Below are positions 15,465-32,992 of a DNA stretch of 64,000 bases, in pieces. Both the position numbers and the translations under genes were made by a program. How positions within the stretch are numbered: the stretch's first letter is position 1; each line of letters begins with the position of its first letter. A model generated the notes under the pieces. It searched no databases. It worked only from the letters and a program-made list of their open reading frames with translations, and was not told the DNA's origin. Source of the stretch: Amycolatopsis sp. DSM 110486 (lineage in GTDB: Bacteria; Actinomycetota; Actinomycetes; Mycobacteriales; Pseudonocardiaceae); assembly GCF_019468465.1 (NCBI RefSeq), contig NZ_CP080519.1:1565001-1629000 (forward strand). Reading direction: 5' to 3'.

Positions 15465-16217
15465 ATGAGCATCGACGTCGTGGCCGGCGAAGCCGTCACC
15501 ACCGTGACGATCAACCGTCCGGACAAGCGCAACGCGCTGACCACGGCCCTGTACTCGGCCCTGGCCGAAGCGCTGGAGACCGCGGCCACACCGATCGTCG
15601 TCCTCACCGGCGCCGGCGGCACGTTCACCGCGGGCAACGACCTGGGCGATTTCCTCGCGCCCGACGAGGGCAGCGGGGACGACACACCCGTGCGGCGTTT
15701 CCAGGAGGCGCTGCTCGCCACGCGCGCGGTGGTGGTCGCGGCCGTCGACGGCCCGGCCGTCGGCATCGGCGCGACGCTGCTGCTGCACTGCGACCTCGTG
15801 TACGCGACCGAGCGCAGCTACCTGCAGTTCCCGTTCACGTCGCTGGGCCTGGTGCCGGAGTACGGCAGCAGCTTCGTGCTGCCGCGTCTGCTCGGCCCGC
15901 AGCGCGCCGCCGAGCTGCTGCTCTTCGGCGGCCGCGTGCCCGCCGCCGAGGCGCACCGGCTGGGGCTCGTCAACGAGGTGCTGGCCGACGCGGCGGCGCT
16001 GGAGGCCCGCGTCGCCGACCGGACGGCCGCGCTGGCCGCGCAGCCGGCTTCGTCGCTGGCGCTGACCCGCGAGCTGCTGCGCGATACCGAGAACACCAGC
16101 GTGCGCGCGCGGATGGACGTGGAGTCGCAGCACTTCGCGAAGCTGCTGCACGACCCGGCGACGGTCGCCAACCTGCGCGCGAAGCTCCGACGCCGTTACC
16201 AATCCGACCAGAAGTAG
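15465..16217 (+). CDS. Enoyl-CoA hydratase/isomerase family protein
   Basis: 250 residues of the crotonase fold: NRPDKRNALT, GAGGTFTAGNDL (first oxyanion NH and CoA-binding loop), VDGPAVGIGATLLLHCDLVY (second oxyanion loop) and FGGRVPAAEAHRLGLVNEV. One of the two usual catalytic Glu positions appears substituted (FTSLGLVPEYGSS keeps a Glu). It probably hydrates or isomerises an acyl-CoA; substrate unknown. Its last codons (RRRYQSDQK and the stop) lie inside the left arm of palindromic element A, suggesting the element replaced or modified the original 3' end. Confidence 0.88.
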   Translation: MSIDVVAGEAVTTVTINRPDKRNALTTALYSALAEALETAATPIVVLTGAGGTFTAGNDLGDFLAPDEGSGDDTPVRRFQEALLATRAVVVAAVDGPAVGIGATLLLHCDLVYATERSYLQFPFTSLGLVPEYGSSFVLPRLLGPQRAAELLLFGGRVPAAEAHRLGLVNEVLADAAALEARVADRTAALAAQPASSLALTRELLRDTENTSVRARMDVESQHFAKLLHDPATVANLRAKLRRRYQSDQK

Positions 16218-16286
16218 GCGGGAATCCAGCAGGACGTGACTGCGTCCAGCAACCGTTCCCGCCGTGACTGTGGTCGGATTGGTAAC
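16195..16286 (+). repeat. Palindromic element A (92 bp)
   Basis: Perfect 16-bp terminal inverted repeats, GTTACCAATCCGACCA (16195-16210) and TGGTCGGATTGGTAAC (16271-16286). After an asymmetric internal loop (GAAGTA against GTGACTG) a second stem GGCGGGAA/TTCCCGCC follows, then a small apical hairpin GGACG/CGTCC. It lies between convergent echA and tetR and could serve as a two-way terminator. Related copies are at 25610-25703 and 32902-32992. Confidence 0.85.
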
Positions 16287-16296
16287 CGACAACGCA

Positions 16297-16905
16297 TCAG
16301 GCGAGCTTGCGGCGGCGCTTGTCCACGGCGCCGTCAAGCAGCGGCCGCAGCTCCTCGACGATCGAGTCGAGCGGGGCGACGTCTTGCTCGGCGCGCGCGA
16401 GCACGATCGCGCCTTCGAGCGAGCTGATCATCAGCACGGCCAGCGAAGCCGCGCGCGTGGGAGATACGCCCATCTGCTCCAGTGCTTCCACGAGCGGTTT
16501 ACGCCATTCGGCGAATGCGCCGGCCGTACTCTCCCGCAGCTTTTCGCTCATCGCGGCGGAATCGGCGACCGTGGCGACGATCGGGCAGCCGTTCCCGAAT
16601 CCCTGATCGGCGAATTCGGCGCGCCACGGCGCGACCATCGCGGCGAAGAGGTTGCCCGGCGTCGCGTCTTCCAGCGATTCGGCGTTGCGGCGCACGCGGC
16701 GCGCGGCGTACCTGCCGGCCCAGGCGACCGCTTCGGCGACGAGCTGCTCCTTACCCCCGGGGAAGTAGTGCTGCAGCGACCCCCGCGGTGCGTTCGCGTG
16801 GGTCACCACGTCCCGCAGGCCCGTACCGCCGACGCCCTGCGTCCGCAGCAGCTGCGCGGCGCTGAACACCATCCGGTCCCGCGCCGGCCTCTCCGACTCC
16901 GCCAC
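16297..16905 (-). CDS. TetR repressor of the LmrA/YxaF branch
   Basis: 202 residues. Helix-turn-helix: LRDVVTHANAPRGSLQHYFP. The C-terminal domain carries GNGCPIVATVADS, the conserved Cys-containing loop of the LmrA/YxaF group. GTG 16905 is chosen because AAGGAGGT lies 5 bases upstream; a TTG two codons earlier sits too close to it. An ATGAC-N4-GTCAT palindrome (16920-16933) lies just before the ribosome site, and two more lie around the GNAT start, so it probably represses the GNAT-tetR unit. Its first ~155 bp overlap the GNAT frame. Confidence 0.85.
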   Translation of the reverse strand: MAESERPARDRMVFSAAQLLRTQGVGGTGLRDVVTHANAPRGSLQHYFPGGKEQLVAEAVAWAGRYAARRVRRNAESLEDATPGNLFAAMVAPWRAEFADQGFGNGCPIVATVADSAAMSEKLRESTAGAFAEWRKPLVEALEQMGVSPTRAASLAVLMISSLEGAIVLARAEQDVAPLDSIVEELRPLLDGAVDKRRRKLA

Positions 16906-17392
16906 CGACAACCTCCTTCATGACGCTGGTCATGCTAGTCGGCACGACCCGTTCGAACTCCTTCTCGCCCCGCTCGAATGTCGCGACCGGGCGGAAGCCG
17001 TGTGCGCGCAGCAGGCCCTCGGCCGGCGCGTTGCCGACCTGGACGGTGGCGTGCAGCGTCCAGCCCGCCCATCGGACGTCCTCGGTCAGGCTGCGCACGA
17101 GCGCGCTCGCGATGCCGCGGCGGTGCCAGGCGTCGGCCACGAGCACCGCGAGCTCGGCCCGGCGCTCGCCTTCCGGCACGAGGTTGACCAAGCCGACCGC
17201 AGCGTCGTCGACCTTGGCGACGAGGGCCGCGCCGGCGAGCAGGAACGCGCGGTAGCGCACCAGGACCCAGTCGGGCGCCGGGCGCACGGGCAACGTGAAG
17301 CGCCACGCGAGGCTCTCCGGCGAGCACGCTCGCACGAGTCCCTCCACGGCACCGGCGGTCGCCGGCTCGACGGTCACTATGACAGCTGTCAT
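16751..17392 (-). CDS. GNAT N-acetyltransferase, C-terminus running into tetR
   Basis: 213 codons, of which about residues 1-160 are a normal GNAT: a beta strand with VGLVNLVPEGERRAELAVLV, the acetyl-CoA loop WHRRGIASALVRSL (the Q/RxxGxG/A position) and ANAPAEGL-type helix VGNAPAEGLLRAHGFRPVA. The conserved domain ends near 16930. The frame then continues for about 50 codons of Gly/Ala/Arg-rich sequence that is simply another frame of the tetR gene, so the original stop was probably lost. The acceptor substrate is unknown. The ATG at 17392 is embedded in an operator palindrome. Confidence 0.78.
   Translation of the reverse strand: MTAVIVTVEPATAGAVEGLVRACSPESLAWRFTLPVRPAPDWVLVRYRAFLLAGAALVAKVDDAAVGLVNLVPEGERRAELAVLVADAWHRRGIASALVRSLTEDVRWAGWTLHATVQVGNAPAEGLLRAHGFRPVATFERGEKEFERVVPTSMTSVMKEVVGGGVGEAGAGPDGVQRRAAAADAGRRRYGPAGRGDPRERTAGVAAALLPRG
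16919..16934. promoter_or_regulatory. ATGAC-N4-GTCAT operator before tetR
   Basis: CATGACGCTGGTCATG, a perfect 6+6 palindrome with a 4-base spacer, 14 bp before the tetR start. It matches the pattern of the sites at 17379 and 17428. Confidence 0.75.
17379..17392. promoter_or_regulatory. ATGAC-N4-GTCAT operator covering the GNAT start codon
   Basis: ATGACAGCTGTCAT is a perfect 14-base palindrome whose right end contains the GNAT initiation codon read on the minus strand. Binding here would block transcription or initiation directly. Confidence 0.75.
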
Positions 17393-17427
17393 GGCCCATG
17401 GGTAGCACGGTTTTCCTGATCGACTCA

Positions 17428-17445
17428 CTATGACGGACGTCATAG
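17428..17445. promoter_or_regulatory. ATGAC-N4-GTCAT operator upstream of GNAT
   Basis: CTATGACGGACGTCATAG, 7+7 palindrome with a 4-base spacer, 36 bp upstream of the GNAT start. It is the longest and most symmetric of the three sites and probably the primary operator. Confidence 0.78.
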
Positions 17446-17720
17446 TCGTGCTCACGCTACCGACACGGCCGGCCCCGACCGAGACCCACACCGCCCAGTC
17501 GAACGGTGGGACATGACCGGTTCTGGGTAATCCGATTTCACTTCCCGTGTGCGCCATCACCCAGTGCGCTGAAAAATGCCGGCAATTCATGCGTGGAACA
17601 CAATCTGTCGCGCCGTGAGCCTTATCGGGTGAAAACCGTTCCCGAAACCTTCCGACCTCGTGATTCTTCTCTATCTTCTAATCTAATCTTCTCGAAACAG
17701 TGCACGAAGGGGACGCGGTC
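17446..17720. other. Intergenic region with AT-rich 3' half
   Basis: Divergent spacer between GNAT and the 140-residue hypothetical gene. From about 17570 it becomes unusually AT-rich for this genome (TTCTTCTCTATCTTCTAATC at about 17662-17681), consistent with a promoter for the rightward gene, possibly with TAATCT as the -10. No coding sequence is seen. Confidence 0.5.
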
Positions 17721-18143
17721 ATGACCCAGTCGATCGAAGCTCCGGCGAAGGAATTCTGCGTCGACTGGGAGATGGAGGGAAACGACGGCGGCCGTGTGAA
17801 CGTCACGCTGTCGGGTCACGTGAGCCTGCTCGACGGCAGCCGCTTCTACAAGGTCGACGGCGTGCTCTACATCGCGGAAGGCGCCGAGTACTGCCGCGAG
17901 GTCGGCAACCCGCGCCTCTACGTCCGGCGCAACGGCGTGGAAGCCAGCGGCCGGCACTGGGGCTGGGAGACGATCAGCTCGCGCAAGACCGCCAACCGCC
18001 TCTGCACGATGGACGGGTACTTCGTGCGCACCGGTTACTGGGCCCCGTCCGACCGGTCGATCCAGCTGAGCATCGTGGCGGAGCACGGCATCACGCGACG
18101 CAAGTCATACAGCGGTACGGCGACCGTCCGGCTCGTGGACTGA
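17721..18143 (+). CDS. Hypothetical protein
   Basis: 140 residues, soluble and without signal peptide or membrane helix. It is rich in beta-strand patterns (GGRVNVTLSGHVSLLDGS, RFYKVDGVLYIAEGAEYC, NPRLYVRRNGVEASG) and contains three Cys. I do not recognise a family. ATG 17721 has a GAAGGGG ribosome site 7 bases upstream. The AT-rich leader suggests its own promoter; the next gene on the strand is about 190 bp away. Confidence 0.6.
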   Translation: MTQSIEAPAKEFCVDWEMEGNDGGRVNVTLSGHVSLLDGSRFYKVDGVLYIAEGAEYCREVGNPRLYVRRNGVEASGRHWGWETISSRKTANRLCTMDGYFVRTGYWAPSDRSIQLSIVAEHGITRRKSYSGTATVRLVD

Positions 18144-18330
18144 CGCAGGTTTCCGGGCTCCGCATTCAACGCGTGGCGAGCATCGGGCAAGTCGATCACG
18201 ACGTGAAGTGACGGCGTTCACCCACAAGTGGGGTGAAGACCTTGAGCGTGCTGAGGAACACACCGTTTTCCCAGGAAAATCAAAGAAAACGTTGTGCTGG
18301 ACACAGCGCGCGCGGGCGTGTACGAGGACC

Positions 18331-18960
18331 ATGGAGCCCATGCGGAACAAGGCTCGGGCTGGCAGACCACCTCTTCTCTTCACCCGTTTCCTACGACGAC
18401 TGGGATTCGCGCGGAATCCGCTCGTGCGGCGCTCCGACCGGATCGAGGGTCTCCTCGCCGGCCTGGCCGCGCTGATCGCGATCTTGGCGCTCCCGCTCGT
18501 GGTACTGCTCGGCAATGCCGACGTCTCCCACGAGACCGCGGCGTCGGACGCGCAGCTGCACGCGCGCCACCAAGTCACCGCGACCGTGCTCGCGCCCGCG
18601 CCGAAGACGGCGTCGATGGGCGACAGCGCCCCGATCGCCCACAGCTCTCGAGTAACCGCCAACTGGCAGCTGCCGAACGGCTCGCCGCAGACCGGCGTCG
18701 TGACGGTGCCCGCGGGCGCCGGCAACCCCGGTTCGCAGGCGCCGATCTGGCTGGACGACAACGGCAAGCAGACCACCGCCCCGCTCACCCACGCCGACGC
18801 GGTGACCAACGGCGTGCTCGTGGGCACCTTCACGTGGCTCTGCGCGATCGGCCTGCTGGCCGGCGCGTTCTGGATCGCCCGGCGCGTGCTCGACCACCGG
18901 CGAGCGATCCGCTGGGCCGACGAATGGGCACAGCTCGCCGGCCCGGAGGCAGTTCGCTGA
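18331..18960 (+). CDS. Rv1733c-family membrane protein
   Basis: 209 residues with two membrane helices, about 43-62 (LLAGLAALIAILALPLVVLL) and about 163-185 (GVLVGTFTWLCAIGLLAGAF), separated by an extracytoplasmic domain with VTANWQLPNGSPQTGVV and APIWLDDNGKQTTAPLT. The layout and the RNPLVRRSDRIE N-terminal motif match mycobacterial Rv1733c, a latency-associated antigen whose function is unknown. GAGGA precedes ATG 18331. Confidence 0.85.
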   Translation: MEPMRNKARAGRPPLLFTRFLRRLGFARNPLVRRSDRIEGLLAGLAALIAILALPLVVLLGNADVSHETAASDAQLHARHQVTATVLAPAPKTASMGDSAPIAHSSRVTANWQLPNGSPQTGVVTVPAGAGNPGSQAPIWLDDNGKQTTAPLTHADAVTNGVLVGTFTWLCAIGLLAGAFWIARRVLDHRRAIRWADEWAQLAGPEAVR

Positions 18961-19056
18961 AGCCGGCTGCCTCCGGGCCCCGGCCGGCGGACCGGCGGAG
19001 CGACACCCCCAGCGCCGCCCCGCGGCAGTGCAACGCCTACCGCTAAGCCTGTGTTG

Positions 19057-19081
19057 GCGAGTTAACTAACAGCTAACTCGC
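19057..19081. promoter_or_regulatory. Inverted repeat upstream of the XRE/ImmA operon
   Basis: GCGAGTTA (19057-19064) and TAACTCGC (19074-19081) are perfect inverted copies around ACTAACAGC. A partial repeat, AACTGTCAGCTAATCTG, lies at 19119-19135 next to the predicted promoter. It is likely an operator for the XRE protein encoded just downstream. Confidence 0.55.
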
Positions 19082-19113
19082 ACTGCTCACAGTCTTGTGT
19101 AGGGGAGCCCTGA

Positions 19114-19142
19114 TTGTCAACTGTCAGCTAATCTGGGATAGT
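19114..19142 (+). promoter_or_regulatory. Predicted promoter for the XRE/ImmA operon
   Basis: -35 TTGTCA (19114-19119) and -10 GATAGT (19137-19142) with a 17-base spacer, 45 bp before the XRE start codon. Confidence 0.6.
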
Positions 19143-19186
19143 CGACCTAGCTGAGAGCAATCAGTCGCTGACCGGAGGGGGCGGAC

Positions 19187-19633
19187 ATGTCCAGTGACTC
19201 GAGTGATGACACTCGGCCGACGTTGGCCTCCAGGCTCGACGATCTGTTCCGCACGGTGCGCCCGCAGGGCAAGCACTGGACGAACGCCGAGGTCGTGACC
19301 GAGCTCAAGCGCGTGTCGCCGGAGCTGAAGGTCGGCTCGGTGTACCTGTCGCAGCTGCGGTCGGGCAAGCGCACCAACCCGTCGCAGGAGCTGTTGGCGG
19401 CGCTGGCGAAGTTCTTCGGGGTGTCCGTCGCGTACTTCTTCGACGAGAAGGTGGCGGGCGACGTGCTGAGCGAGCTGGCCGCCATCGAGGCGATGCGGCA
19501 GGCGGGCGTGCGCGCGGTCGCGATGCGCGCGGCGGGGATGCGCGAGGAGAACCTGCAGGCGATCACCACGATCATGGACCAGTACCGCCAGATGCAGGGC
19601 CTGCCGCCGGTCAGCGACGAAGCGGCGGGCTGA
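19187..19633 (+). CDS. XRE-family DNA-binding protein (EspR-like layout)
   Basis: 148 residues. An N-terminal helix-turn-helix (KHWTNAEVVTELKR, VGSVYLSQLRSGKRTNPSQE) recognises DNA, followed by FFGVSVAYFFDEKV and a C-terminal helical region that probably dimerises. The long recognition spacing resembles EspR-type regulators. ATG 19187 follows GGAGGGGGCGG. Its stop is two bases before the ImmA start, so the pair is one operon. In comparable XRE/ImmA pairs the protease cleaves the repressor; here that is inference only. Confidence 0.85.
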   Translation: MSSDSSDDTRPTLASRLDDLFRTVRPQGKHWTNAEVVTELKRVSPELKVGSVYLSQLRSGKRTNPSQELLAALAKFFGVSVAYFFDEKVAGDVLSELAAIEAMRQAGVRAVAMRAAGMREENLQAITTIMDQYRQMQGLPPVSDEAAG

Positions 19634-19635
19634 GC

Positions 19636-20166
19636 ATGGCGGAGGAGCGTCGCGACCAGCTCAAGCGGATGCGCGAAGAGGGCGCCCGGCGGATCGCCGA
19701 GCTGGATCTGCCGAAGGGCTGCGACCTCCCGACTCTGTGCGAACGGCTGGGCACCATCCGCGAACGGCCGATCACGCTCGTGCCGATGCCCATGCCGGCC
19801 TCCCACCCGTGCGGCATGTGGGTTGCGGCGCAACAAGAAGACCTCATCTTCTTCGACGCCAACACCACCGGCGCACACCAGGAGCACATCATCTTGCACG
19901 AGCTCGGTCACATCATCTGCTGCCACCGCGGCTCGGGCCTGCTCGACGACGAGAGCGCCCGGTCCCTCTTCCCCAACCTCGACCCGGACATCGTCCGCGA
20001 CATGCTGATGCGCGCCACCTACGACGACGCGCAGGAGCAGGAGGCGGAGATCATCGCGTACCTGCTGTCCGAGCGGATGGGCGTGGTGCCGGCTCCCGCC
20101 CCGGCCGCGAAGGTCCCGGCGGCGGAGGAGAAGCCGATCGACCGGATCGAGCGGATGCTGCTGTAG
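19636..20166 (+). CDS. ImmA/IrrE-type zinc metalloprotease-like protein
   Basis: 176 residues with the metalloprotease signature HELGH (about residue 88) preceded by IIL and followed by IICCHRG, plus the downstream acidic stretch DDAQEQEAEIIAYLLSERM that supplies the third zinc ligand in this family. No signal peptide, so cytoplasmic. ImmA/IrrE proteins cleave phage-type repressors or DdrO in response to stress. Coupled to the XRE gene upstream; the tail is rich in Pro and Ala. Convergent with the KS-AOS gene, with 3 bp between stops. Confidence 0.85.
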   Translation: MAEERRDQLKRMREEGARRIAELDLPKGCDLPTLCERLGTIRERPITLVPMPMPASHPCGMWVAAQQEDLIFFDANTTGAHQEHIILHELGHIICCHRGSGLLDDESARSLFPNLDPDIVRDMLMRATYDDAQEQEAEIIAYLLSERMGVVPAPAPAAKVPAAEEKPIDRIERMLL

Positions 20167-20169
20167 AGC

Positions 20170-23100
20170 TCACTTCTCCCGCAGCCGGGCGAGTTCCGTG
20201 GCCACCGTTGTCGTCGTGTATTCCAGCTGCGCCGCCTCGTGGTCGCTGGTGAGGAAGAAGCGCAGGCGGGTCTGGGATTCGTCGACGGCCGGGTGGAGGA
20301 TCGGGTCGACGATGATGCCGCGGTCGTAGAGGGTGCTGGCCAGGCGGAGGGTCGTGGTGGAGTCGCCGATGACGCAGGGGACGATGGGCGTCGCGGAGGC
20401 GGAGCCGGTGGGCAAGCCGGCGGCCTGGGCCAGCCTCAAGAAAGACGCGGAGTTTTCGCGGAGGCGAGCCAGCCGCGAGGGTTCTGCGCGCAGGACGCGC
20501 AGGGCGGCCAGGGAAGCGGCGGCGCTGGCGGGCGTGAGGCCGACGCTGTAGACGAAGCCCGGCAATGAATACCGCAGCCACTGGACCGTTCGCGACGAGC
20601 CGGCCAGGTAGCCGCCGCAGCCGGCCAGGGACTTGGACAGCGTGCCCATCCAGAGGTCGACCTCGGATCGCTCGACGCCGAAGTGTTCGCCGACGCCGGC
20701 GCCCGTGGCGCCGACCGTGCCGATGCTGTGGGCCTCGTCGACCATCAGCAAGGCGCCGTAGCGCTTCTTGACCTCGATCAGGCCCGGTAGGTCGGCGAGG
20801 TCGCCGTCCATGCTGTAGGCGCCCTCGACCACGATGAGCACGCGGCGGAACCGAGCGCGCGTGCGGCGCAGGATGTCTTCGAGCTGCGCGACGTCGTTGT
20901 GCGGGAACGGGCGGCGCGTCGCTCCGGAGAGGGTGCAGCCCTGCAGGATGCTGTCGTGCGCGAGCGAGTCGTGCACGATGAGGTCGCCGGGGCCGACGAG
21001 GTGGCCGATGGCGCTGACGTTGGTGGCGTGGCCGCTCACCAGCGCGAGGCAGTCGTCCGTGCCGAGGAACGTCGCCAGCTCCGTCTCCAGCCCACGCGTG
21101 AGGTCGCGGTCGCCCGCGAGGAGGCGGCTGCCGGACACCGAGGTGCCATAGCGTTCCACGGCGTCGTGCACCGCGGCCGTCACGGCCGGGTGGCCGGAGA
21201 GACCCAGGTAGTTGTAGCTGGAGAACGACAGGTACTGCCGGCCGCCGACGGTCGTCGTGCTGGTCAGGAGACCTTGGTGCTTGCGGAAGTACGGGTTCGG
21301 CACGCCGAGGTCCGAGAACTCCCGCAGCCGCGCGTCGATCGCCGCGGCCTCGGGGAAGTCGTCGATCGACGCCGTGGCGGGGTCGAACGCGACGGTCTCC
21401 GAAGGCAGTGGCACGGGCACCGGCACGGCGGGCGTGATGAGCCCCGCCACCGCACCGGCCGTGACACCGCGCTCCTGCTCGATCTCGAAGCGCTGCCCGG
21501 GGAAGCGCTTGCGGAGGTTGGCTTCCAGCTCCGTCAGCATGAGGGAGTCGAACCCGAGATCGTCGATCAACGCGTGCCCGGCGCACAGGTCACCGACCGG
21601 GAACGCACTCGTGCGCGCGACCTCCTCCAGCACCACGGCCAGCACGTCCCGCGACGACGGAAGTCCCTGTGGCTCAACGGGTTCCGCGGACGAGACAGCA
21701 CTCAGCGGCGGCAACGACTGCGCCTTCACCCGCTTCGCCTCGTCGACGACCCAGTGGTGACGCGGGCTGAGCGGGCTCGGCGGCAGCGTGCACGGCGGCG
21801 TCCGGCCGATCGCGGGCCGCAGCCCGGCGCCGGTCACGGCCAGCGCGGCCAGCTCCAGCAGCGGCAGTTCCGGCGCGGGCACCTCGGCGCCCGGCGCCAC
21901 GACCCCCGCGTACGTCGCCGGCGCCAGCTCCCCCGCCGTCCCGGATTCCAGTGCGACGGACGCCGCCACCAGCTTCGACACCGCGTCGCCGGCATCGTCG
22001 GCCACCACGGCGAGCCGTTCGGCGAACAACGCGCGACGCGCCAAAGTGGACGCCACCGCGGCCAGCGGCAGCGGATCGCGCGAGAGCACCTCCGCGACCT
22101 CACGCGCGTGCCGGGCCAAGCCCGCCCGGTCGCGCGCGGTCAGCAGCAGCAACTGCGGACCATCAACAGAAACCGTTGGCACCGCAGGGGATTCCTCGAG
22201 CACCACGTGCACGTTCGTCCCACCGAAGCCGAACGCGCTCACCCCCGCGCGGCGCGGACCGTCGGCAGTCCACGGCGTCACCTCCCCGGCCACCCGCAGA
22301 CCGGCCTCGTCGAGCGCCAGGTGCCCGGCCGGCTCGAAGTCCGGCTGCGGCAGGATCTGTCCCTTGTGGACCGACAACACCGACTTGATCAGCCCGGCGA
22401 TCCCCGCGGTCCCGAGCGAATGCCCCACCACGGACTTCGCGGCGCCGAGGTACGCGGGAGTGGTCGCGTCGCGACGCAGCTCGCCCAGCGCGTTGATCTC
22501 CACGTCGTCGCCCACCGACGTCGCCGTGCCGTGCGCTTCCAGGTACCCGACGGAGCCAGGCTCCACGTCGGCGTCGCGGTACGCGCGGCGCAACGCCAGC
22601 AGCTGGCCCGACTCCTGCGGCATCATGCCGCCCTTGACCGTGCCGTCGTTGGACAGCCCGACGCCGCGGATCACCGCGTAGATCCGGTCGCCGGCGGCCT
22701 GCGCGTCGGCCAGCGGGCGCAGCACGAGCACGCCGGCACCTTCACCCAGCACGAACCCGTCGGCCCGGCTGTCGAACGGCCGGCACTCGCCGGTGCGGGA
22801 AACCGCACCGATGCGGCACAAACCCACCAGCAGGTCCGGCGTGAGCACCAGCTGCGCACCACCGGCCACGGCGATGCGGCAGCGGCCCGCCCGCAGCGCG
22901 AACACCGCGTTGGCCACCGCCGTGAGGCCGCCGGAGCAGGCTGCATCGAGCGCGTAGCTTTCGCCGTGCAGGTCGAACACGGAGCTGATCGAGCTCGGGC
23001 CCATGTTGAGCAGCAGCCCGGCCATGGCCGTGGCGTGCAGACCACCGACGGCCGAGCCCGCCTCCGCCAGCTCGGCGCCCGCCGAGCGGCCGAACTCGCC

Positions 23101-23565
23101 GCCCGCGAACTGGCGCAGGCGAATGTGAAGCGTGCTCATCTCGCGGTAGCCGCTCTCGGACAGCGACATGATCACCGACGTGTCTTCGCGCTCGAAGCCG
23201 CCGGCCTCCCAGCCGGCGTCCTGCAGCGCTTCGCGCGTGAGGTCGACCAGCAGCCGGTGCTGCGGGTCGAGTGATTTCGCGCGGCGCGGCGGGATGCCGT
23301 AGTGCCCGGCGTCGAAGTCGCCGACGTCGTCGAGCAGCGCCATCTTGTCGGAGTACGCGGCCGAGGTGTCCCGGAAATCGTCGTTGTAGAACGAGTCCCG
23401 GCACCACCTCGAATCCGGGACGGTCCTGAACTGAGGCTTCGGCTCACTGAGCAGATCCCAGTACTCGTTCACGTTCCGCGCACCGGGAAAACGGCACCCG
23501 ATGCCGACAATAGCGATGTCCGGTCGATTTCCGATTTCTTGCGCAGCAGATCCCCAAGACGCCAT
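20170..23565 (-). CDS. AT-less polyketide synthase: ketosynthase, ACP and alpha-oxoamine synthase
   Basis: 1131 residues. KS about 14-458: Cys210 in the unusual DAACSGGL (canonical DTACSSSL), His345 in EAHGTATS and His382 in GHSLGTAG complete the triad. Residues 460-615 join a pre-AT linker (LLLLTARDRAGL) directly to a post-AT-like linker (PLSPRHHWV), so the acyltransferase is missing. ACP about 635-710 has the phosphopantetheine Ser674 in LGFDSLM. A PLP alpha-oxoamine synthase fills about 740-1125, with Lys978 in TLSKSLAG and VDEAHSIG. Expected chemistry: extension or loading of an acyl chain on the ACP, then decarboxylative condensation with an amino acid to give an alpha-aminoketone. The acyl source, amino acid and product are unknown. 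GAGGAAG precedes ATG 23565. The epimerase gene is 109 bp upstream on the same strand. Confidence 0.92.
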   Translation of the reverse strand: MASWGSAAQEIGNRPDIAIVGIGCRFPGARNVNEYWDLLSEPKPQFRTVPDSRWCRDSFYNDDFRDTSAAYSDKMALLDDVGDFDAGHYGIPPRRAKSLDPQHRLLVDLTREALQDAGWEAGGFEREDTSVIMSLSESGYREMSTLHIRLRQFAGGEFGRSAGAELAEAGSAVGGLHATAMAGLLLNMGPSSISSVFDLHGESYALDAACSGGLTAVANAVFALRAGRCRIAVAGGAQLVLTPDLLVGLCRIGAVSRTGECRPFDSRADGFVLGEGAGVLVLRPLADAQAAGDRIYAVIRGVGLSNDGTVKGGMMPQESGQLLALRRAYRDADVEPGSVGYLEAHGTATSVGDDVEINALGELRRDATTPAYLGAAKSVVGHSLGTAGIAGLIKSVLSVHKGQILPQPDFEPAGHLALDEAGLRVAGEVTPWTADGPRRAGVSAFGFGGTNVHVVLEESPAVPTVSVDGPQLLLLTARDRAGLARHAREVAEVLSRDPLPLAAVASTLARRALFAERLAVVADDAGDAVSKLVAASVALESGTAGELAPATYAGVVAPGAEVPAPELPLLELAALAVTGAGLRPAIGRTPPCTLPPSPLSPRHHWVVDEAKRVKAQSLPPLSAVSSAEPVEPQGLPSSRDVLAVVLEEVARTSAFPVGDLCAGHALIDDLGFDSLMLTELEANLRKRFPGQRFEIEQERGVTAGAVAGLITPAVPVPVPLPSETVAFDPATASIDDFPEAAAIDARLREFSDLGVPNPYFRKHQGLLTSTTTVGGRQYLSFSSYNYLGLSGHPAVTAAVHDAVERYGTSVSGSRLLAGDRDLTRGLETELATFLGTDDCLALVSGHATNVSAIGHLVGPGDLIVHDSLAHDSILQGCTLSGATRRPFPHNDVAQLEDILRRTRARFRRVLIVVEGAYSMDGDLADLPGLIEVKKRYGALLMVDEAHSIGTVGATGAGVGEHFGVERSEVDLWMGTLSKSLAGCGGYLAGSSRTVQWLRYSLPGFVYSVGLTPASAAASLAALRVLRAEPSRLARLRENSASFLRLAQAAGLPTGSASATPIVPCVIGDSTTTLRLASTLYDRGIIVDPILHPAVDESQTRLRFFLTSDHEAAQLEYTTTTVATELARLREK

Positions 23566-23674
23566 GACAGAACTTCCTCGCGCCGATCGCCCACCCAGTA
23601 GGTGAGAGATTGCCCCGTGGCGATCGGATTTTCAAGAGCGTCCCGGAATTCGTGCGAAAATCCCCGACCGCAGG

Positions 23675-24885: not shown

Positions 24886-25602
24886 ATGCCTATGTCTTCT
24901 GAAGATCTCCCCCGGCTCGTCAAGGACACGGCTCGCCGTCAGCTCGCCGAGACCGGTGCGACCGGTCTGACGCTGCAGACGGTGGCCGTCGAAAGCGGCG
25001 TGACCGTGGCCGAGGTGCAACCGTTTTTCGGAGATCGTGACGATCTCCTGACCGCATTGATCATCGACGCTTACAACGCCTCCGGCGGGGCCATGGAACA
25101 GGCCGATCCCGGCGAGCGGGAAACGGATCCCGGCGCGCGCCTGCTGGCCGTCACCCGCGCATTGCGCGAATGGTCGCTCGCGAACCCGGCCGAGTTCGCC
25201 TTGCTCTACGGCTCGCCCGTGCCCGGCTACGCGGCACCGGAGACCACCGTGGGCCCGGCTTCGCGCACGCCCGCGGCGCTCGCCGCGGTGCTGCGTTCCG
25301 CGCTGGCGGCGGGATCCCTCACGCCGCCGAGCCGGCCGCTGCCCGGTCCGACGCTTGTGACCGCCGAGGCCGTCGCGCTCTTCGGCGGACAGCCCGAGGC
25401 TCCGTACGGCGATCTGCTCGAACGCGGGATCGTGCTGTGGAGCAACCTGATCGGCCTGCTGGTGTTCCAGGTGTTCAGCCGTACGCACGACAGCGTCGCC
25501 GACCAGTCGGCCTTCTTCGACTACGCGGTGGCCGTGGCGGCGGAAGCCGTCGGCCTGGCCGTGCCGCTCGAAGGAAGCCGGCGCGAGGCCGTGAACGCCT
25601 GA
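24886..25602 (+). CDS. TetR-family regulator with WHG-like C-terminal domain
   Basis: 238 residues. Helix-turn-helix: LTLQTVAVESGVTVAEVQPF then FGDRDDLLTA. The C-terminal part contains LREWSLANPAEFALLYGSPV, the signature of TetR proteins with a WHG domain. It is divergent from the epimerase with about 270 bp between, so it may control the epimerase/KS-AOS unit. Palindromic element B begins 8 bp after its stop, between it and the MAB_1171c gene. Confidence 0.85.
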   Translation: MPMSSEDLPRLVKDTARRQLAETGATGLTLQTVAVESGVTVAEVQPFFGDRDDLLTALIIDAYNASGGAMEQADPGERETDPGARLLAVTRALREWSLANPAEFALLYGSPVPGYAAPETTVGPASRTPAALAAVLRSALAAGSLTPPSRPLPGPTLVTAEAVALFGGQPEAPYGDLLERGIVLWSNLIGLLVFQVFSRTHDSVADQSAFFDYAVAVAAEAVGLAVPLEGSRREAVNA

Positions 25603-25609
25603 ATCTCGA

Positions 25610-25703
25610 GTTACTAATCCGGCCAAAAGCAGGCCGACCCCCCACGCGGCGCGTAACCGTTGCTACGAAGCCATTCGGCCGTGACTGTGGTCGGATTAGT
25701 AAC
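25610..25703 (+). repeat. Palindromic element B (94 bp)
   Basis: Terminal arms GTTACTAATCCGGCCA (25610-25625) and TGGTCGGATTAGTAAC (25688-25703) match at 15 of 16 positions. As in element A, an internal loop (AAAGCA against GTGACTG) separates the outer stem from an inner stem (GGCCGA/TCGGCC). The outer arm of the right half, GTGACTGTGGTCGGATT, is identical to element A over 17 bases. Confidence 0.85.
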
Positions 25704-25736
25704 AATCGATACAGAACACAACTGGGGTGGTCTGGT

Positions 25737-26870: not shown

Positions 26871-26898
26871 ACCACTTTCGTCCGAAGTGGACCGCGGC

Positions 26899-27546: not shown

Positions 27547-27598
27547 GGTTGCCTCCCCGGTGTGGTCCACACTTATTTTTACCGGGTCGGCCTGGTTT

Positions 27599-27928: not shown

Positions 27929-28308
27929 CGGATCTCCTCGGCAACACAGGGGTCGTGCCGGGCCGAAGCCTCGGCGAGCTTGTCCATCAACGCGGTCCGC
28001 ACGGCGCCGAGGTCGGCCAGGCACTTCTCGACTTCCTCGAGCTTGCGCCGGTACACCTCGACCGAAGCCGGGCAGGCGTCGCCGGACTTGTGGCCGGTGC
28101 GCAGGCAGTCGACGAACGGGCGGGTGTCTTCGAGGGTGAACCCGACCGTGCGCAGCGTCTGGATCTCGCTGACCAGCCGTAGATCGTTCTCGTCGTACTC
28201 CCGGTACCCGTTCGCCGACCGCCCCGCCGGCAGCAGCCCCTGCGCCTCGTAGAAGCGCAACGCCCGTGGTGTCGTCCCCGCCCGCCGGGCGAGCTCGCCG
28301 ATCCGCAT
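27925..28308 (-). CDS. MerR-family regulator with redox- or metal-type cysteines
   Basis: 127 residues. N-terminal MerR winged helix (MRIGELARRAGTTPRALRFY, GYREYDENDLRLVSEI) is followed by a dimerisation helix and several cysteines (DCLRTGHKSGDACPA, KCLADLG, DPCVAEEI) spaced for metal or thiol sensing. Coupling to thioredoxin suggests it reports thiol or metal stress. The operator at 28324-28343 lies 16 bp before the ATG, which is so close to the promoter that the transcript may be leaderless. Confidence 0.85.
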   Translation of the reverse strand: MRIGELARRAGTTPRALRFYEAQGLLPAGRSANGYREYDENDLRLVSEIQTLRTVGFTLEDTRPFVDCLRTGHKSGDACPASVEVYRRKLEEVEKCLADLGAVRTALMDKLAEASARHDPCVAEEIR

Positions 28309-28323
28309 GCGTCCGACGGTAGA

Positions 28324-28343
28324 CCTTGACGTGCGCGTCAAGG
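28324..28343. promoter_or_regulatory. MerR operator
   Basis: CCTTGACGTGCGCGTCAAGG is a perfect 8+8 inverted repeat with a 4-base centre. The TTGACG half-sites double as a -35, as in MerR-type promoters. Confidence 0.78.
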
Positions 28344-28350
28344 CCACCTC

Positions 28351-29538
28351 TCAACCCGCGAGCTTGCCGGTGTACTCCTGGTACTGCACCGCGTTCGCCG
28401 CCCGGGTGCTCATGTAGTCGAACACCTTCCCGAACACCGGGCCGGTCAGCATGCGGTACATCCGGTTGCGGCTGCGCAGCTTCTTCTCGTTCTCCGGCAC
28501 GAGGAACCCGCCCGAGCCGGCACCGTTCTTGTGGCCGATGTGCGCCGGCTTGCGCAGGCGCTGCTCGTACTTCTCGAACGCGGTCACGTGGTCGCCGTTC
28601 GCGGCCGCCAGCTCACCGGCGAGGATCTGCGCGCCCATCATCGCCAGGCCCGTGCCGGAGCCGCCGGGGCCGGCGCACCACGCGGCGTCGCCGAGCAGCA
28701 CCACACGGCCCTTCGACCACTTGTCCATGCTGATCTGGCCGATGGTGTCGAAGTACAGGTCCGGAGCGTCGTCGACCGCGCCCAGCAGCCGAGGCAGCTC
28801 CCAGCCCGCGCCGGCGAAGACGTCGGCCACGATCTCCTTCTGCCGCTCGAGGTCCGGGCGGCCGTAGCCGCGCGGGTCGCCGCGGAAGAACAGGCCGACG
28901 TTCACGGTCTCGGAGTCGCGTCCGCTGTAGACCATCGCGCCGCGGCCCGGCTCGCTGTAGATCAGGCCGCTGTGGTCCAGTCCGAGGTGGTTCCGCGCGG
29001 TGAAGCCGGCGACGTGGTAGCCGAGGTCCTTGCGAAAGCGCGACTCCGCACCGAAGGCGGCCGTCCGCACGCCCGAGTGCACGCCGTCGGCGCCGACCAC
29101 CAGGTCGAACCGGCGGGGCGCGCCGTGGCGGAAGGTCACCTCGACGCCGTCGGCCGTCTCGGTCAGCGACGTGACGCGGTCGCCGAAGACGTACTCGGTG
29201 TAGTCCACGGTGCGGTCGTAGAGGATGCGGGCGAGGTCGCCGCGCAGGATCTCGAGCTCGCCGCTGGCGAACGAGCTGGGCACGGTCACGATCGGCTTGC
29301 CCGCCGAGTTCAGCAGCAGCTGGTCGCCCATCGCGGTCTCGTACTTGCGCAGCTCCTCGGTGAGCCCCATCGCGTCGATCAGTTTCATCTGCTCGCCGCG
29401 GAAGTCCACGGCCTGGCCGCCGGGCCGCAGCGCCGGCGCCGCCTCGACGACGGTCACGGAGTAGCCGTGGTGGTGCAGCCAGAAGGCGGCCGACGGCCCT
29501 GCCACGCTGGCACCGGAAACGAGCACGGTCTTGGTCAT
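28351..29538 (-). CDS. FAD-dependent aromatic/tetracycline-type monooxygenase
   Basis: 395 residues of the class A flavoprotein monooxygenase fold: GASVAGPSAAFWLHHHGYSV (FAD GxGxxG variant), VVGADGVHSGVR (DG motif) and VVLLGDAAWCAGPGGSGTG (GD motif). The overall layout resembles the TetX/Rv0575c group rather than the long phenol hydroxylases. A TetR gene and a MarR gene lie directly upstream on the same strand, so it is probably an inducible detoxifying or tailoring hydroxylase. ATG 29538 follows AAGGGAC. The substrate is unknown. Confidence 0.87.
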   Translation of the reverse strand: MTKTVLVSGASVAGPSAAFWLHHHGYSVTVVEAAPALRPGGQAVDFRGEQMKLIDAMGLTEELRKYETAMGDQLLLNSAGKPIVTVPSSFASGELEILRGDLARILYDRTVDYTEYVFGDRVTSLTETADGVEVTFRHGAPRRFDLVVGADGVHSGVRTAAFGAESRFRKDLGYHVAGFTARNHLGLDHSGLIYSEPGRGAMVYSGRDSETVNVGLFFRGDPRGYGRPDLERQKEIVADVFAGAGWELPRLLGAVDDAPDLYFDTIGQISMDKWSKGRVVLLGDAAWCAGPGGSGTGLAMMGAQILAGELAAANGDHVTAFEKYEQRLRKPAHIGHKNGAGSGGFLVPENEKKLRSRNRMYRMLTGPVFGKVFDYMSTRAANAVQYQEYTGKLAG

Positions 29539-29662
29539 CGCTGGAGTCCCTTCTCGGGGTTCGGCGTTTCGATGACGCAAGACTGCGGCCCGGCGCTGAC
29601 CACGCCCGCACGGTGCGCTGACGGGGGTGGTGCGCGCTCGTCAGCAGGGGTCGAGGCGACCG

Positions 29663-30313
29663 TCAGCGCAAGCCGCGAACACCCGAAACCAGCAGGTCGA
29701 CGCCTCGCTCGAAGTACGAGTCCTCGTCGCCGCACACGGCCAGCGCGTCAGCGGCGGCCGCGACGTTCGGGAAGCGCTCGGGCGGCAAAGCGGCCAGCGC
29801 GACCCGCTTGCGCTCCACTGCTTCGTCGCGCGAAGACGCGGGGTGGACGTCGGTGGCGCCGGGCTCGGCCGTCACGAGGGTGACGCCGGCGCACAGCAGG
29901 TAGCCGCCGAGCTCCGCGGCTTCTTCGGCGGTGAAGCCGGCTTTGCGCAGCAGGCCGAGCACGTGGTCGGCCACGGTGAGGCCGGCGTCGGACTCGAGGA
30001 TGCGCGGCGGGACGAGGCCGGCGACCGCGGGGTGGGGGCGCACGGCGGCCAGCACCGCCACGAGCGCGGCCCGCAGCCGCGTGTCCCAAGGCCCGTCGGA
30101 GTCCGGCAGCGAGACGTCCGCCAGCAGGCGTTCGGCCAGGCCGGCCACGAGCTCGTGCTTGTCCTTGAAGTGCCAGTACAGGGCCATCGGCGTGACGCCG
30201 TGGTCCTGCGCGAGGCGGCGGATCGTCAGCGCGTCGAGGCCTTCGCGATCGGCGAGCGCGAGGGCGCCGTCGACGATCGTTTCGCGGCTGAGCTTCTCGC
30301 GAGTTTTGGCCAC
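29663..30313 (-). CDS. TetR regulator with TetR_C-type domain
   Basis: 216 residues. Helix-turn-helix with LTIRRLAQDHGVTPMALYWH then FKDKHEL, followed by a C-terminal domain resembling that of class-1 TetR repressors, with HPAVAGLVPPRILESDAGL and GYLLCAGVTLVT. GTG 30313 starts 10 bp after the MarR stop, so MarR and TetR are in one transcript. It lies immediately upstream of the flavin monooxygenase, whose inducer it may sense. Confidence 0.85.
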   Translation of the reverse strand: MAKTREKLSRETIVDGALALADREGLDALTIRRLAQDHGVTPMALYWHFKDKHELVAGLAERLLADVSLPDSDGPWDTRLRAALVAVLAAVRPHPAVAGLVPPRILESDAGLTVADHVLGLLRKAGFTAEEAAELGGYLLCAGVTLVTAEPGATDVHPASSRDEAVERKRVALAALPPERFPNVAAAADALAVCGDEDSYFERGVDLLVSGVRGLR

Positions 30314-30323
30314 GAACCCGACT

Positions 30324-30806
30324 TTACCTCGTACAGGGGCCGTCTTCGTCGTCCGCGTTGAGGCGCGAGACCATGCGGTCGAAGACGCGTTCCAGCACCT
30401 CGAGCTCGTCGGGTTTGACCTGCTCGAAGAAGTACCGCCGCACGGTCTCCACGTGCTCGGGCGCGGCCGCCTCGATCGCTTCGCGCCCGGCCGGCGTGAG
30501 GCGCACCATGGCGCCGCGCGCGTCGTCCGAGCAGTCTTCGCGCGTGACGAGGCCGCGTTTCTCCATCCGGCTCACGTGGTGCGACAGCCGGCTGCGGTCC
30601 CACCTGATCTGCATCCCGAGGTCGCGCATGCGCAGCACGTCGCCGGGCGCCTCGGACAGCGGCACCATCAGCGTGTAGTCCGGGCCCGAAAGCCCCGCGT
30701 CGCGCACGAGCTGCCGGTCGATGGCGCCGTTCAAGGACCGCTGGAGCAGGTGGAACAGCTTCCAGACGTGCAACTCGCGCTCGTCGAGCCAGCGTGCGTC
30801 CGTCAT
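30324..30806 (-). CDS. MarR-family regulator
   Basis: 160 residues, winged-helix MarR fold: LRMRDLGMQIRWDRSRLSHH then VSRMEKRGLVTREDCSDDAR (the beta wing) and LTPAGREAIEAAAPEHVETV. The N-terminal half WKLFHLLQRSLNGAIDRQLV forms the dimer interface. It is the first gene of a MarR-TetR-monooxygenase run and probably senses an aromatic compound. The upstream leader includes TTGTTGACGTATCA, a possible operator or promoter. Confidence 0.87.
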   Translation of the reverse strand: MTDARWLDERELHVWKLFHLLQRSLNGAIDRQLVRDAGLSGPDYTLMVPLSEAPGDVLRMRDLGMQIRWDRSRLSHHVSRMEKRGLVTREDCSDDARGAMVRLTPAGREAIEAAAPEHVETVRRYFFEQVKPDELEVLERVFDRMVSRLNADDEDGPCTR

Positions 30807-30849
30807 GAAGTGAGTCTACCCAATTTGTTGACGTATCACTCTATTGTTT

Positions 30850-30868
30850 GCCCCGCCTCCGGCGGGGC
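30850..30868. terminator. GC-rich hairpin
   Basis: GCCCCGCC (30850-30857) pairs with GGCGGGGC (30861-30868) around TCC. It is a strong small hairpin in the spacer between the feruloyl-CoA-synthetase-like gene end and the MarR start. Confidence 0.55.
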
Positions 30869-30870
30869 GT

Positions 30871-30963
30871 GCGAGATCGCCTAGGAGCCGGCGTCTCGAT
30901 CGGGCGGTCGGATCGGCCGGGGGCCGATCGCACCGCCCGATCGAGACGCCGGCGCGATCTCGC
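30871..30963. terminator. 32-bp-stem hairpin after the acyl-CoA synthetase gene
   Basis: GCGAGATCGC (30871-30880) pairs with GCGATCTCGC (30954-30963); beyond a bulge, 22 bases (30887-30908) pair perfectly with 30932-30953; an inner stem GATCGGCC/GGCCGATC caps it. It lies 82 bp downstream of the gene at 31045 and probably ends that transcript. The right arm is part of a direct repeat (see 30934-31038). Confidence 0.7.
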
Positions 30964-31038
30964 GGGTTGCCTCAAGCAGTGAGGGGCGGTCAGCCCGCGT
31001 CGCCCGATCGAGACGCCGGCGCGATCTCGCGGGTTGCC
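30934..31038. repeat. 38-bp exact direct repeat
   Basis: 30934-30971 and 31001-31038 are identical over 38 bases, beginning CGCCCGATCGAGACGCCGGC and ending GGGTTGCC. The following GGGCGGTCAGCCCGCG also recurs, and in the second copy it forms the end of the acyl-CoA synthetase gene. The arrangement looks like a tandem duplication of the gene's 3' end that also extended the hairpin. It is too short and too few in copy number to be CRISPR. Confidence 0.8.
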
Positions 31039-31044
31039 GGGCGG

Positions 31045-32853
31045 TCAGCCCGCGACGATCACCGCGGCGTCCGGTTCACCAGCGTAAAGACGCTCGACGA
31101 ACGCCACCCGCCGGGCCAGCACGCGGCGCTGGTTGAGGTAGCCCTTGTCCGTGATCTCGCCCGCGTCGAGGTCCGGCGGCTCGGCCAGCACCACGAGCCG
31201 CTCGACTCGGCCCGCCGACCCGGCCGCCGCGTTCATCGCGGCCAGCAGCTTCCCGACGTGCGCGCGCAGCTCGGCGTGGACCACACAGCCGTCCGAGGCA
31301 TCGAGCGAACCCGCGAACAACGCCCGCGCTTCGGCCTGGTTGAGCCAGGCCAGCGCACTGACGTACGAGCGGTTCTCCCCCGCGATCACCGCGTCGGACA
31401 GCAGCGGCACGGCCGAGAGCAGCGCCGTGCGCAGCGCGCCGACGCGGACGAACGTGCCCGTGTCGAGCTTGAAGTCCTCCGCGATGCGGCCACCGAACAG
31501 CAGCCCGGCGTTCGGGTCGGCCGAGGCCGGCACGGCGGCGTCGCCGGTGCGGTAGAAGCCTTCCTCGTCGAACGCCGCGTCCGTGAGGTCGGGCCGGTGC
31601 AGGTAGCCGGGCGTCACGGAGGCGCCGCGCACGCGGATCTCCCGCGCCTCGCCCACGGGCGCGAGCTTGACCTCGAGCCCCGGCAGCGGCACGCCGATGC
31701 ACCGCGCGTCCTCGAACGGGAAGTGCGCGCTCGTCACCGCGGGCGCCGTCTCGGTCGCGCCCCACGAGCTCGTCAGCGGCACGTCGACGCCGGCTGCCCT
31801 GGCCGCGTCCGCCAGCCGCGTGCGCAACGCCGCCGGCAACGCGGCCGCCGCGTTGAACAGCAACCGCAGCCGCGAGAAGAACACGCGCGCGAAGTCGGGG
31901 TCCTGCTCCAGCACGGGTACGAGCTGTGCGTAGCCGGCGGGCACGTTGAAGTAGAGCGTGGGCTGCGCCGAACGCAGGTTCTCCAGGCTGCGGCCGAACA
32001 GCTGCGGCGCCGGCTTGCCGTCGTCCACGTAGAGCGTGCCGCCGTTGTGCAGCACCAGGTCCACGTTGTGGTTGCCGCCGAAGGTGTGGCTCCACGGCAG
32101 CCAGTCGACGAGCACAGGCCGCTCCTCGCCCAGGAACGGCCACGCCTGCCGGATCGACTGCTGGTTCGCGCACAGCATCCGGTGCGTGTTGAGCACGCCC
32201 TTCGGCGAACCGGTCGAGCCCGACGTGAAGAGCACCTTCGCTAGCGTGTCCGGTCCCGTCGCGGAGTACGCGGCTTCAAGCTCCGGGCCCGGCGAAGTGG
32301 CCAGCAGGTCGTCGAGGGATTCCGCGCCCGGCACAGTGTCGACCTCGCGCGCCAGCACAACACTGGGCCGATCAACACCGGGCGCCTCGACGGCGGCGAG
32401 CGCCTTCGCGAACGGACCACCGGCCTCGGCGAACACCAGCCCCGGCTTCAGTACCTTCGCGATCTCCCGGATCCGCGCGTGGTCGCTGCTGAGCAGGGAG
32501 TACGCGACGCTGATCGGCGCCACCGGCACGCCCGCCGTCAGCGCGCCGAGCGTGAGCACGAAGTGCGCGACGGAGTTGCCGGAAAGGATCATCACCGGCC
32601 GGTCCGGCCCCAGACCGCGGTCGAGCAGCGCCTGCCCGAGCGCGTCGGCGCGACGGCGGACCTCGCCGTAGGTCAGCGTCGCCCAGCCGTCGCCGTCGCG
32701 CTCGGCCACCAGCGGGTAGCCGGGGTCGACTCCGGCCCAGTCCCGCAGCATCGCGGCCACGCTGCGCGGGTAAGCACCCAGCGGGTCGCGGGAGCGGAAG
32801 ACGACGCTCCCGTCCGGCCGGTCCTCGCGTTCGACGTCGGGTTCAGCGAACAT
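31045..32853 (-). CDS. Acyl-CoA synthetase, feruloyl-CoA synthetase-like
   Basis: 602 residues of the adenylate-forming superfamily. The AMP-binding P-loop is VLFTSGSTGSPKGVLNTHRM, with motif A5 SSWGATETAP, and the Tyr/Asp/Arg region FYRTGDA followed by GGRIAEDFKLDTGTFVRVGA. GRIAEDFKL and the wording around LPWSHTFGG are close to bacterial feruloyl-CoA synthetases, which activate hydroxycinnamic acids with ATP and CoA. A MarR gene lies just upstream, a known partner for this enzyme type. ATG 32853 follows GGAGGAGACGG. Product specificity is inferred. Confidence 0.85.
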   Translation of the reverse strand: MFAEPDVEREDRPDGSVVFRSRDPLGAYPRSVAAMLRDWAGVDPGYPLVAERDGDGWATLTYGEVRRRADALGQALLDRGLGPDRPVMILSGNSVAHFVLTLGALTAGVPVAPISVAYSLLSSDHARIREIAKVLKPGLVFAEAGGPFAKALAAVEAPGVDRPSVVLAREVDTVPGAESLDDLLATSPGPELEAAYSATGPDTLAKVLFTSGSTGSPKGVLNTHRMLCANQQSIRQAWPFLGEERPVLVDWLPWSHTFGGNHNVDLVLHNGGTLYVDDGKPAPQLFGRSLENLRSAQPTLYFNVPAGYAQLVPVLEQDPDFARVFFSRLRLLFNAAAALPAALRTRLADAARAAGVDVPLTSSWGATETAPAVTSAHFPFEDARCIGVPLPGLEVKLAPVGEAREIRVRGASVTPGYLHRPDLTDAAFDEEGFYRTGDAAVPASADPNAGLLFGGRIAEDFKLDTGTFVRVGALRTALLSAVPLLSDAVIAGENRSYVSALAWLNQAEARALFAGSLDASDGCVVHAELRAHVGKLLAAMNAAAGSAGRVERLVVLAEPPDLDAGEITDKGYLNQRRVLARRVAFVERLYAGEPDAAVIVAG

Positions 32854-32901
32854 TCGACCGTCTCCTCCTCGAGACCCGCTGTGTCTCCATCTGTGCTGCT
32901 G

Positions 32902-32992
32902 GTTATGAAGCCGACCACAGCCACGGCGGGAGCGGTTGCCAGACAAGGCGACCGCCGGTGAGTACCCGCCTACTTTTGGTTGGCTTCATAAC
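32902..32992 (-). repeat. Palindromic element C (91 bp), inverted relative to A and B
   Basis: Arms GTTATGAAGCCGACCA (32902-32917) and TGGTTGGCTTCATAAC (32977-32992) match at 15 of 16 bases. Read on the minus strand it shows the same order as A and B: outer arm, AAAAGTA loop, inner stem GGCGGG, variable centre, CCCGCC, GTGGCTG loop, outer arm. The first base overlaps the last base of the MarR stop codon. Confidence 0.85.

Follow-up and report, generated by a model that had tools for sequence, protein, structure and literature searches.

The MIRU of mycobacteria are intergenic units of ∼50 to 100 bp, sometimes tandem, that overlap stop/start signals. ERIC is an imperfect palindrome for which no transposase is known, and subclass 1.1 of the Y1 transposases is the IS200 class. 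Only Y1 genes of that subclass are recorded in PMC6006769 for the large actinobacterial genomes sampled there. In the descriptions given by PMC2229807 and PMC10969869, ERIC is short (127 bp) and mostly intergenic, with TA termini and a copy number that varies widely between strains. RUP of Streptococcus pneumoniae (107 bp) and Correia/NEMIS (105 to 155 bp) are likewise described as dispersed elements with TA termini (PMC2229807), and REPs as units of 20 to 40 bp with a GTAG or CGTC tag (PMC3733652). Here, we describe a hairpin element found in three copies in a 64,000-nucleotide stretch of the chromosome of Amycolatopsis sp. DSM 110486 (the window; NZ_CP080519.1, positions 1,565,001 to 1,629,000). 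The family to which these copies belong is protein-free mobile DNA of ∼100 bases, mostly intergenic, in Amycolatopsis, an antibiotic-producing genus. We regard it as probable that this is a small noncoding insertion element, moved in trans via its folded top strand and joined at TTA.

Copies, anatomy, and distribution

A sequence-only reading of the window had placed three palindromes of 91 to 94 bp behind genes that it labeled echA, tetR, and marR, labels that we retain. All three copies were recovered at those places and align over their full length, with a mean column identity of 83%. The extent had been set too short, as the real element measures ∼102 nt and has an 11-nt 3' tail beyond the stem. 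The features in the window are as follows:

16194..16297, + strand: copy 1, of the subfamily with a CCCGCC inner stem (stem 16195-16286, tail 16287-16297; model match G000:C1:1581194-1581297)
16215..16217, + strand: present stop codon of putative echA (15465-16217), within the element's AAGTAG
25609..25714, + strand: copy 2 (stem 25610-25703, tail 25704-25714; model match 1590609-1590714)
32891..32993, - strand: copy 3 (stem 32902-32992, tail 32891-32901; model match 1597891-1597993)

With the conserved sequence GTGRCTGTGGTCGG as the query, the window's own genome (G000, 11 Mb) yielded many copies beyond these three. The first 30 loci from this pattern search comprised 29 element copies and one locus that is not a copy (L011, excluded); the 29 were used to train a covariance model, which was then run on G000. 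The model search gave a total of 52 copies at 47 sites, because three arrays merge into single sites; the sequence-only reading had set five as the least number to be expected genome-wide. Nearly all copies (51/52) were retrieved at E values below 1e-9, and the remaining one, at 7105191, scored 4e-5. Sixteen of the 68 model-match rows were opposite-strand shadows of the same places. The model scored 150 of 13,214 first-look candidates; thus, weak copies may be missed. The arrays are tandem and head-to-tail, with 3, 3, and 2 units and a period of 103 to 105:

L079:3501-3810, L061:3501-3814, and L094:3501-3709: head-to-tail arrays of 2 to 3 units

The sites are spread unevenly, with 38 of the 47 in the first half of G000:C1 (p 2.5e-5). 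The region from 7.3 to 9.7 Mb is without any copy, and seven of the nine matches to IS630-type genes in this genome sit at 8.4 to 8.8 Mb. In G000, for which an origin could not be located, copy strand showed no clear bias relative to replication.

Each unit is a polar hairpin with the layout TTACNAATCCGRCC-AAAAGYA-GGC.. apex ..GCC-GTGRCTG-TGGTCGGATTNGTAA-CGANCRGCACAG. The conserved AAAAGYA and GTGRCTG sides pointed out in the sequence-only reading are indeed common to the copies, except that copy 1 reads AGAAGTA; the apex, described there as variable, is not simply so. Both subfamilies have a recurring ACGT(N)ACCG in their apical part, and the apex is thus not free to vary. The element is asymmetric, with one arm of a 15-pair stem at its 5' end and, at its 3' end, an unpaired tail ending in CACAG (consensus directly 3' of the stem, GANCRGCACAG) that is conserved nearly as well as the stem. 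Conservation falls at GTT on the left and at the last G of the tail on the right, where the next base is T in 32/46 copies and the one after it A in 27/46, corresponding to the target. The element lacks terminal inverted repeats, as the 3' arm of the stem sits 11 nt inside the 3' end and the termini (TTAC and CACAG) are unlike; nor does it carry a GTAG/CGTC tag. It is not A+T rich, with a G+C content of 53 to 71% in 108 copies (window, 69%).

These 108 copies form the structure alignment, in which 49 come from G000 (all but 7105191, 3321036, and 4954456) and 59 from named Amycolatopsis records. Pairing holds in 96.4% of the stem cells, whereas slid versions pair in at most 44%. Double changes occur at 13 of the 25 stem pairs, compared with 5.7 in shuffles, which bears out the compensatory stem changes expected in the sequence-only reading. 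G.U cells outnumber A.C cells by 196 to 17 (108 of the G.U cells come from two columns), and 17 stem pairs favor G.U compared with 4 favoring A.C. A G.U pair on the shown strand is an A.C pair on the opposite one; hence, it is the fold of the shown (top) strand that appears to matter. We conclude from this pattern that one folded strand is selected, as RNA or as single-stranded DNA, with the data fitting either form.

Within the genus, 19 of 36 genomes (the model's own included) had a match, compared with none of 24 from other families. The number of matches in a genome ranged from 0 to 54, the maximum being that of G000 and including two opposite-strand shadows. A broader sample of the family gave matches in 20 of 297 genomes, of which 11 carry the genus label of the window, 7 a second label, and 2 (weakly) a third. 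An exact-pattern scan of GTDB species retrieved 56 loci, all titled Amycolatopsis. No match was found in phages or plasmids (blastn with one copy) or in viral contigs (exact pattern), and a literature search returned no small mobile hairpin family in Amycolatopsis among the titles of the matches listed. At L274:3837-4110 in A. alkalitolerans, two copies lie 170 bp apart with near-identical flanks; the pair probably arose when the element and its flank were duplicated locally.

Filled and empty sites

Mobility was assessed against a close relative (G028) whose flanks are mostly 93 to 98% identical (∼95%). Both flanks of 41 of the 47 G000 sites are present in G028, the other 6 being without a fetched ortholog. 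By eye, 31 of these 41 sites are empty in G028, 9 are filled, and 1 holds an internally deleted remnant. One of the nine shared sites has one unit in G028 and two in G000, and the 3-unit array at 3.32 Mb is entirely missing in G028. Reciprocally, 17 sites (16 copies and one remnant) are found only in G028; 10 of these were located in G000, all empty, and the other 7 were not located in the G000 stretches fetched. The alignments show two lineages that differ by apparent gain (or loss) of copies. Six of the targets in G028 are TAA/TAG stop codons of flanking genes, which favors insertion over excision. Mobility is therefore well supported by paired sites, and we read the family as a recently mobile, noncoding, strand-polar hairpin element.

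The window copies illustrate these comparisons. At the orthologous site of copy 1, G028 lacks the element and reads CCGC^TAGGCG. There, echA ends at a CTAG that also ends the convergent gene, and this TAG is the target. The window echA reads on into copy 1 and stops at the element's own TAG, in line with the earlier placement of the stop codon inside the element. Copy 1 is thus best interpreted as having landed in the stop codon of echA. Copy 2 begins 7 nt past the TGA of putative tetR (end at 25602), and its site in G028 has the corresponding flanks without the element. The stem of copy 3 starts on the final base of putative marR's TAG; the element is absent from the corresponding site in G028, but this site is rearranged and does not provide a clean empty site. 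Elsewhere in the window, a large protein (20170-23472, - strand) combines ketoacyl synthase domains in its N-terminal part with a class I/II aminotransferase domain in its C-terminal part, and we take it to resemble the polyketide-synthase/alpha-oxoamine-synthase fusion type.

Shortened copies also occur. The G028 ortholog of G000:C1:3074864 (L206) retains both ends and has lost the hairpin interior, and at G028:C1:217959-218006, the full model matches over 48 nt. Such copies likely represent a decay route through deletion of the hairpin.

Junctions and target

A typical pair is site 4554107, which reads CGT|TATGACT when empty and CGT|TACC...CACAG|TATGACT when filled. Defining the core as the sequence from the C of CNAATCC to CACAG, we found that the net gain at 29 parsed sites was the core plus 2 bases at 13, plus 1 at 5, and plus 3 at 1, with 10 sites irregular or misparsed. 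The latter include a few rows (among them 1597891, 5955749, and 10505734) whose left edge was set wrongly by the automated delimitation of the core; the two units of the 4.954-Mb array were omitted from junction parsing. By eye, TA lies within 2 bases of the insertion point at 20 of the 29 sites (one a remnant), and 18 of these 20 have TTA or CTA. The ten reciprocal sites read by eye have TA at 9 and TTA at 7. In the named genomes, where flanks were analyzed for 55 of the 59 copies (excluding L261 and L263, near locus ends; L298, on a short locus; and one of the two in L274), the right flank is TA in 37 of 55. Taken together, the junctions show a net difference at TA that usually leaves TA on both sides, which may reflect duplication of 2 bases or a staggered exchange with the same outcome.

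Such a target is unevenly available. In the window, TTA/TAA density is 6.6 per kb in noncoding DNA versus 0.79 in coding DNA (∼8-fold). Among 29 element-free targets in G028, 9 are at stop codons (6 TAA/TAG and 3 TGA), 6 more lie within 16 nt of a start, 5 fall within genes as called, which may be over-extended, and 9 are none of these. TANNNT is the actinobacterial -10 box, and leaderless starts lie 6 to 8 nt past it. Of 26 sites in G000 at which a gene on the same strand starts within 100 nt, 9 have TANNNT directly behind CACAG, compared with 0 of 18 that face a gene end; among right flanks beginning with TA, the counts are 9/14 and 0/8 (Fisher p 0.006). The named genomes show an apparent, weaker contrast (9/24 versus 2/24; among TA flanks, 9/20 versus 2/14). 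A role of the element as a promoter was considered and dropped, since the -10 motif belongs to the target. Placement near gene ends and starts seems to arise because insertion picks TA spots, with TTA marking stops and -10 boxes. The sequence-only reading had suggested a MITE (miniature inverted-repeat transposable element)- or REP-like element that targets gene ends; the filled and empty sites vindicate the kind of element, while the target is TA/TTA rather than gene ends as such.

Orientation relative to genes

The same reading held that the element always follows a stop codon in constant orientation, and this applies to the three window copies only. Around all copies, genes were called with a purpose-made codon-based caller. 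In G000, the element and its nearest upstream gene share a strand at 23 of 47 sites, and in the named genomes they do so for 26 of 54 copies, so that orientation is random; the nearest downstream gene shares the element's strand at 29 of 47 sites in G000. Only 1 of 55 copies in the named genomes lies inside a called gene. There is no strand lock, and random orientation is an outcome that the sequence-only reading had named as counting against its proposal.

These counts bear on the proposal that the hairpin is a functional 3' RNA structure, as the sequence-only reading also suggested, of 3' untranslated regions or a terminator. A strong fold, covariation, conserved internal loops, and the fact that 3/3 window copies lie in the sense of the upstream gene would suit a conserved RNA of this kind. 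The random orientation would not, nor would the finding that most G000 sites lack the element at the orthologous place in G028. The conserved sequence behind the hairpin contains no U-run (T-run), and an Rfam scan of the window gave no match above the gathering threshold; a permissive scan of one copy gave two subthreshold matches, both outside the element. We therefore consider such a function extremely unlikely.

Search for the mobilizing enzyme

A MITE mobilized in trans by an ordinary DDE transposase of the TA-duplicating IS630 type, as for RUP and Correia, would account for the TA found at the two junctions of most sites and for a short, noncoding, mostly intergenic element. IS630-type DDE_3 genes are indeed present in 30 of 60 genomes of the genus, with 9 matches in G000. 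Their presence is, however, not associated with the element (10/19 element-bearing versus 8/17 element-free genomes), and the inverted repeats expected of such a MITE are absent from the actual termini. Two of the three IS630 types in G000 could be delimited, and both begin with CTAGTG.., unrelated to the ends of the element. No larger element with the same right end was found either: a 24-nt right-end pattern gave 37 matches in G000, all within known elements, and a 34-nt pattern, allowing up to 3 mismatches, matched 44 places in G000 and 20 in G028, all within full short elements. Each of the 57 exact right ends in public genomes was preceded by a left end 62 to 74 nt upstream. A DDE-mobilized MITE is thus improbable in our assessment.

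Derivation from REP/RAYT or IS200/IS605, with movement of a single strand by a Y1 (HUH) transposase, would fit a top-strand-polar hairpin with internal bulges, a short target, and asymmetric ends. In addition, the CACAG tail and TTAC head complement internal stretches, in the manner of the cleavage sites and guides described for those systems in PMC6006769. Against this, the Y1 transposase family PF01797 was found in 0 of 60 genomes of the genus, compared with 5 of 14 controls, which largely refutes the idea; the GTAG/CGTC tag is also missing. Among the 25 largest clusters of neighboring genes (1010 called proteins), no transposase-like cluster was recognized by eye. This origin is very unlikely, and the element is not a REP in the strict sense.

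An integron-like attC cassette without a gene, recognized by a tyrosine integrase, is also brought to mind by the folding of one strand with bulges at regular intervals, by the head-to-tail arrays, and by insertion beside TT. The units are nonetheless scattered singly rather than in cassette arrays, and the boundaries misfit G^TT in most sites. The integron integrase model TIGR02249 had no match over cutoff in 60 genomes of the genus, nor in the 14 controls, although lower-scoring matches occur in all 60. We assign this explanation a next to negligible probability.

Proposed mode of movement

Under the reading that we prefer, an insertion element moved in trans, an enzyme supplied from elsewhere would recognize the folded top strand (as single-stranded DNA or RNA) and both ends, excise or copy the element, and then join it at TTA. 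The abundance of TTA/TAA between genes, together with purging of hits in genes, would produce the observed placement. Tandem head-to-tail units would reflect a circular or rolling intermediate or, alternatively, unequal crossing-over.

Several observations weigh against this account. Gain and loss were read from two genomes, G000 and G028. The structure alignment was fitted to the model and hence leans toward structure, and covariation in a long palindrome could partly stem from hairpin-templated repair. Folding energy does little to separate the two strands: all three copies fold far better than shuffled sequence on either one, and the z scores of copies 1 to 3 are -8.96, -5.67, and -6.97 on the element strand and -8.13, -3.67, and -7.40 on the opposite strand, where copy 3 is slightly better. 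The junctions are inexact, with 10 of 29 sites parsing uncleanly and 9 of 29 without TA near the insertion point. At four sites, the C before TA in G028 is a T in the filled copy, more often than we would expect from divergence. The left TTA could be borne by the element, such that insertion without duplication fits nearly as well; by hand, sites 5955749 and 10439901 fit it better. Finally, no transposase that would move the element was found in a search that covered Y1, integron integrase, and IS630.

A further proposal, which we judge unlikely, is a nucleic-acid-guided element of a new type, in which the folded strand or its RNA would recognize and align the element's own tail-head junction and the TTA target for a recombinase borrowed from unrelated elements. 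Borrowing would explain why no longer element shares the ends. GTGRCTGTG, nearly invariant except at R, is complementary over 9 nt (with one wobble) to the tail-head junction CACAGTTAC. This junction, CACAG|TTAC, exists only where tail meets head, as in a circle or a tandem array. The longest junction-spanning run is at least 9 nt in 72 of 107 copies, and 17 copies have none. Of 2140 shuffle trials, 366 equaled the run of the copy concerned. For a single copy close to the consensus, the run was matched by 9 of 3000 single-base shuffles, and it disappears when the wobble is disallowed. This complementarity, noticed after the fact, is no more than suggestive of a guide-like pairing. The target has almost no sequence beyond TTA, which speaks against an IS110-type RNA-guided element, a kind that requires a DEDD recombinase.

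Significance and comparison with known elements

By landing on stop codons and -10 boxes, the element can lengthen proteins and puts new DNA before promoters. More generally, in GC-rich DNA, insertion at so short a target as TA can mimic targeting of gene ends. Because the three usual candidate mobilizers were tested and found unsupported, finding the mobilizer is a clear, testable problem. If it is true that the fold guides the reaction, the element would add to the few nucleic-acid-guided transposition systems.

With a length below 200 bp, no coding capacity, mobility, and many copies, the element falls among the small mobile, MITE-like sequences of bacteria. Compared by description, it resembles ERIC in being short and mostly intergenic, with TA at its termini in most sites and a copy number that varies between genomes. 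It differs in its hosts, in its 3' tail outside the stem, and in its strand-polar fold, whereas ERIC is described with 7-bp terminal repeats (PMC2229807). With RUP and Correia/NEMIS, it shares a length of ∼100 bp, TA termini, and dispersal; unlike the element, both are described with terminal inverted repeats, those of RUP resembling IS630-Spn1 (PMC2229807). REP/REPIN sequences with RAYT are likewise high-copy intergenic hairpins, some internally bulged, of which one strand is recognized; in contrast, the Amycolatopsis element is ∼102 nt and untagged, and the Y1 transposase is absent from the genus sample. Like MIRU, compared by description, it is an actinobacterial, tandem-capable intergenic unit found at stop/start signals. 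In sum, the element is of the same kind as ERIC, RUP, and Correia and differs from them in end anatomy, in base composition, and in that our searches found no mobilizer.

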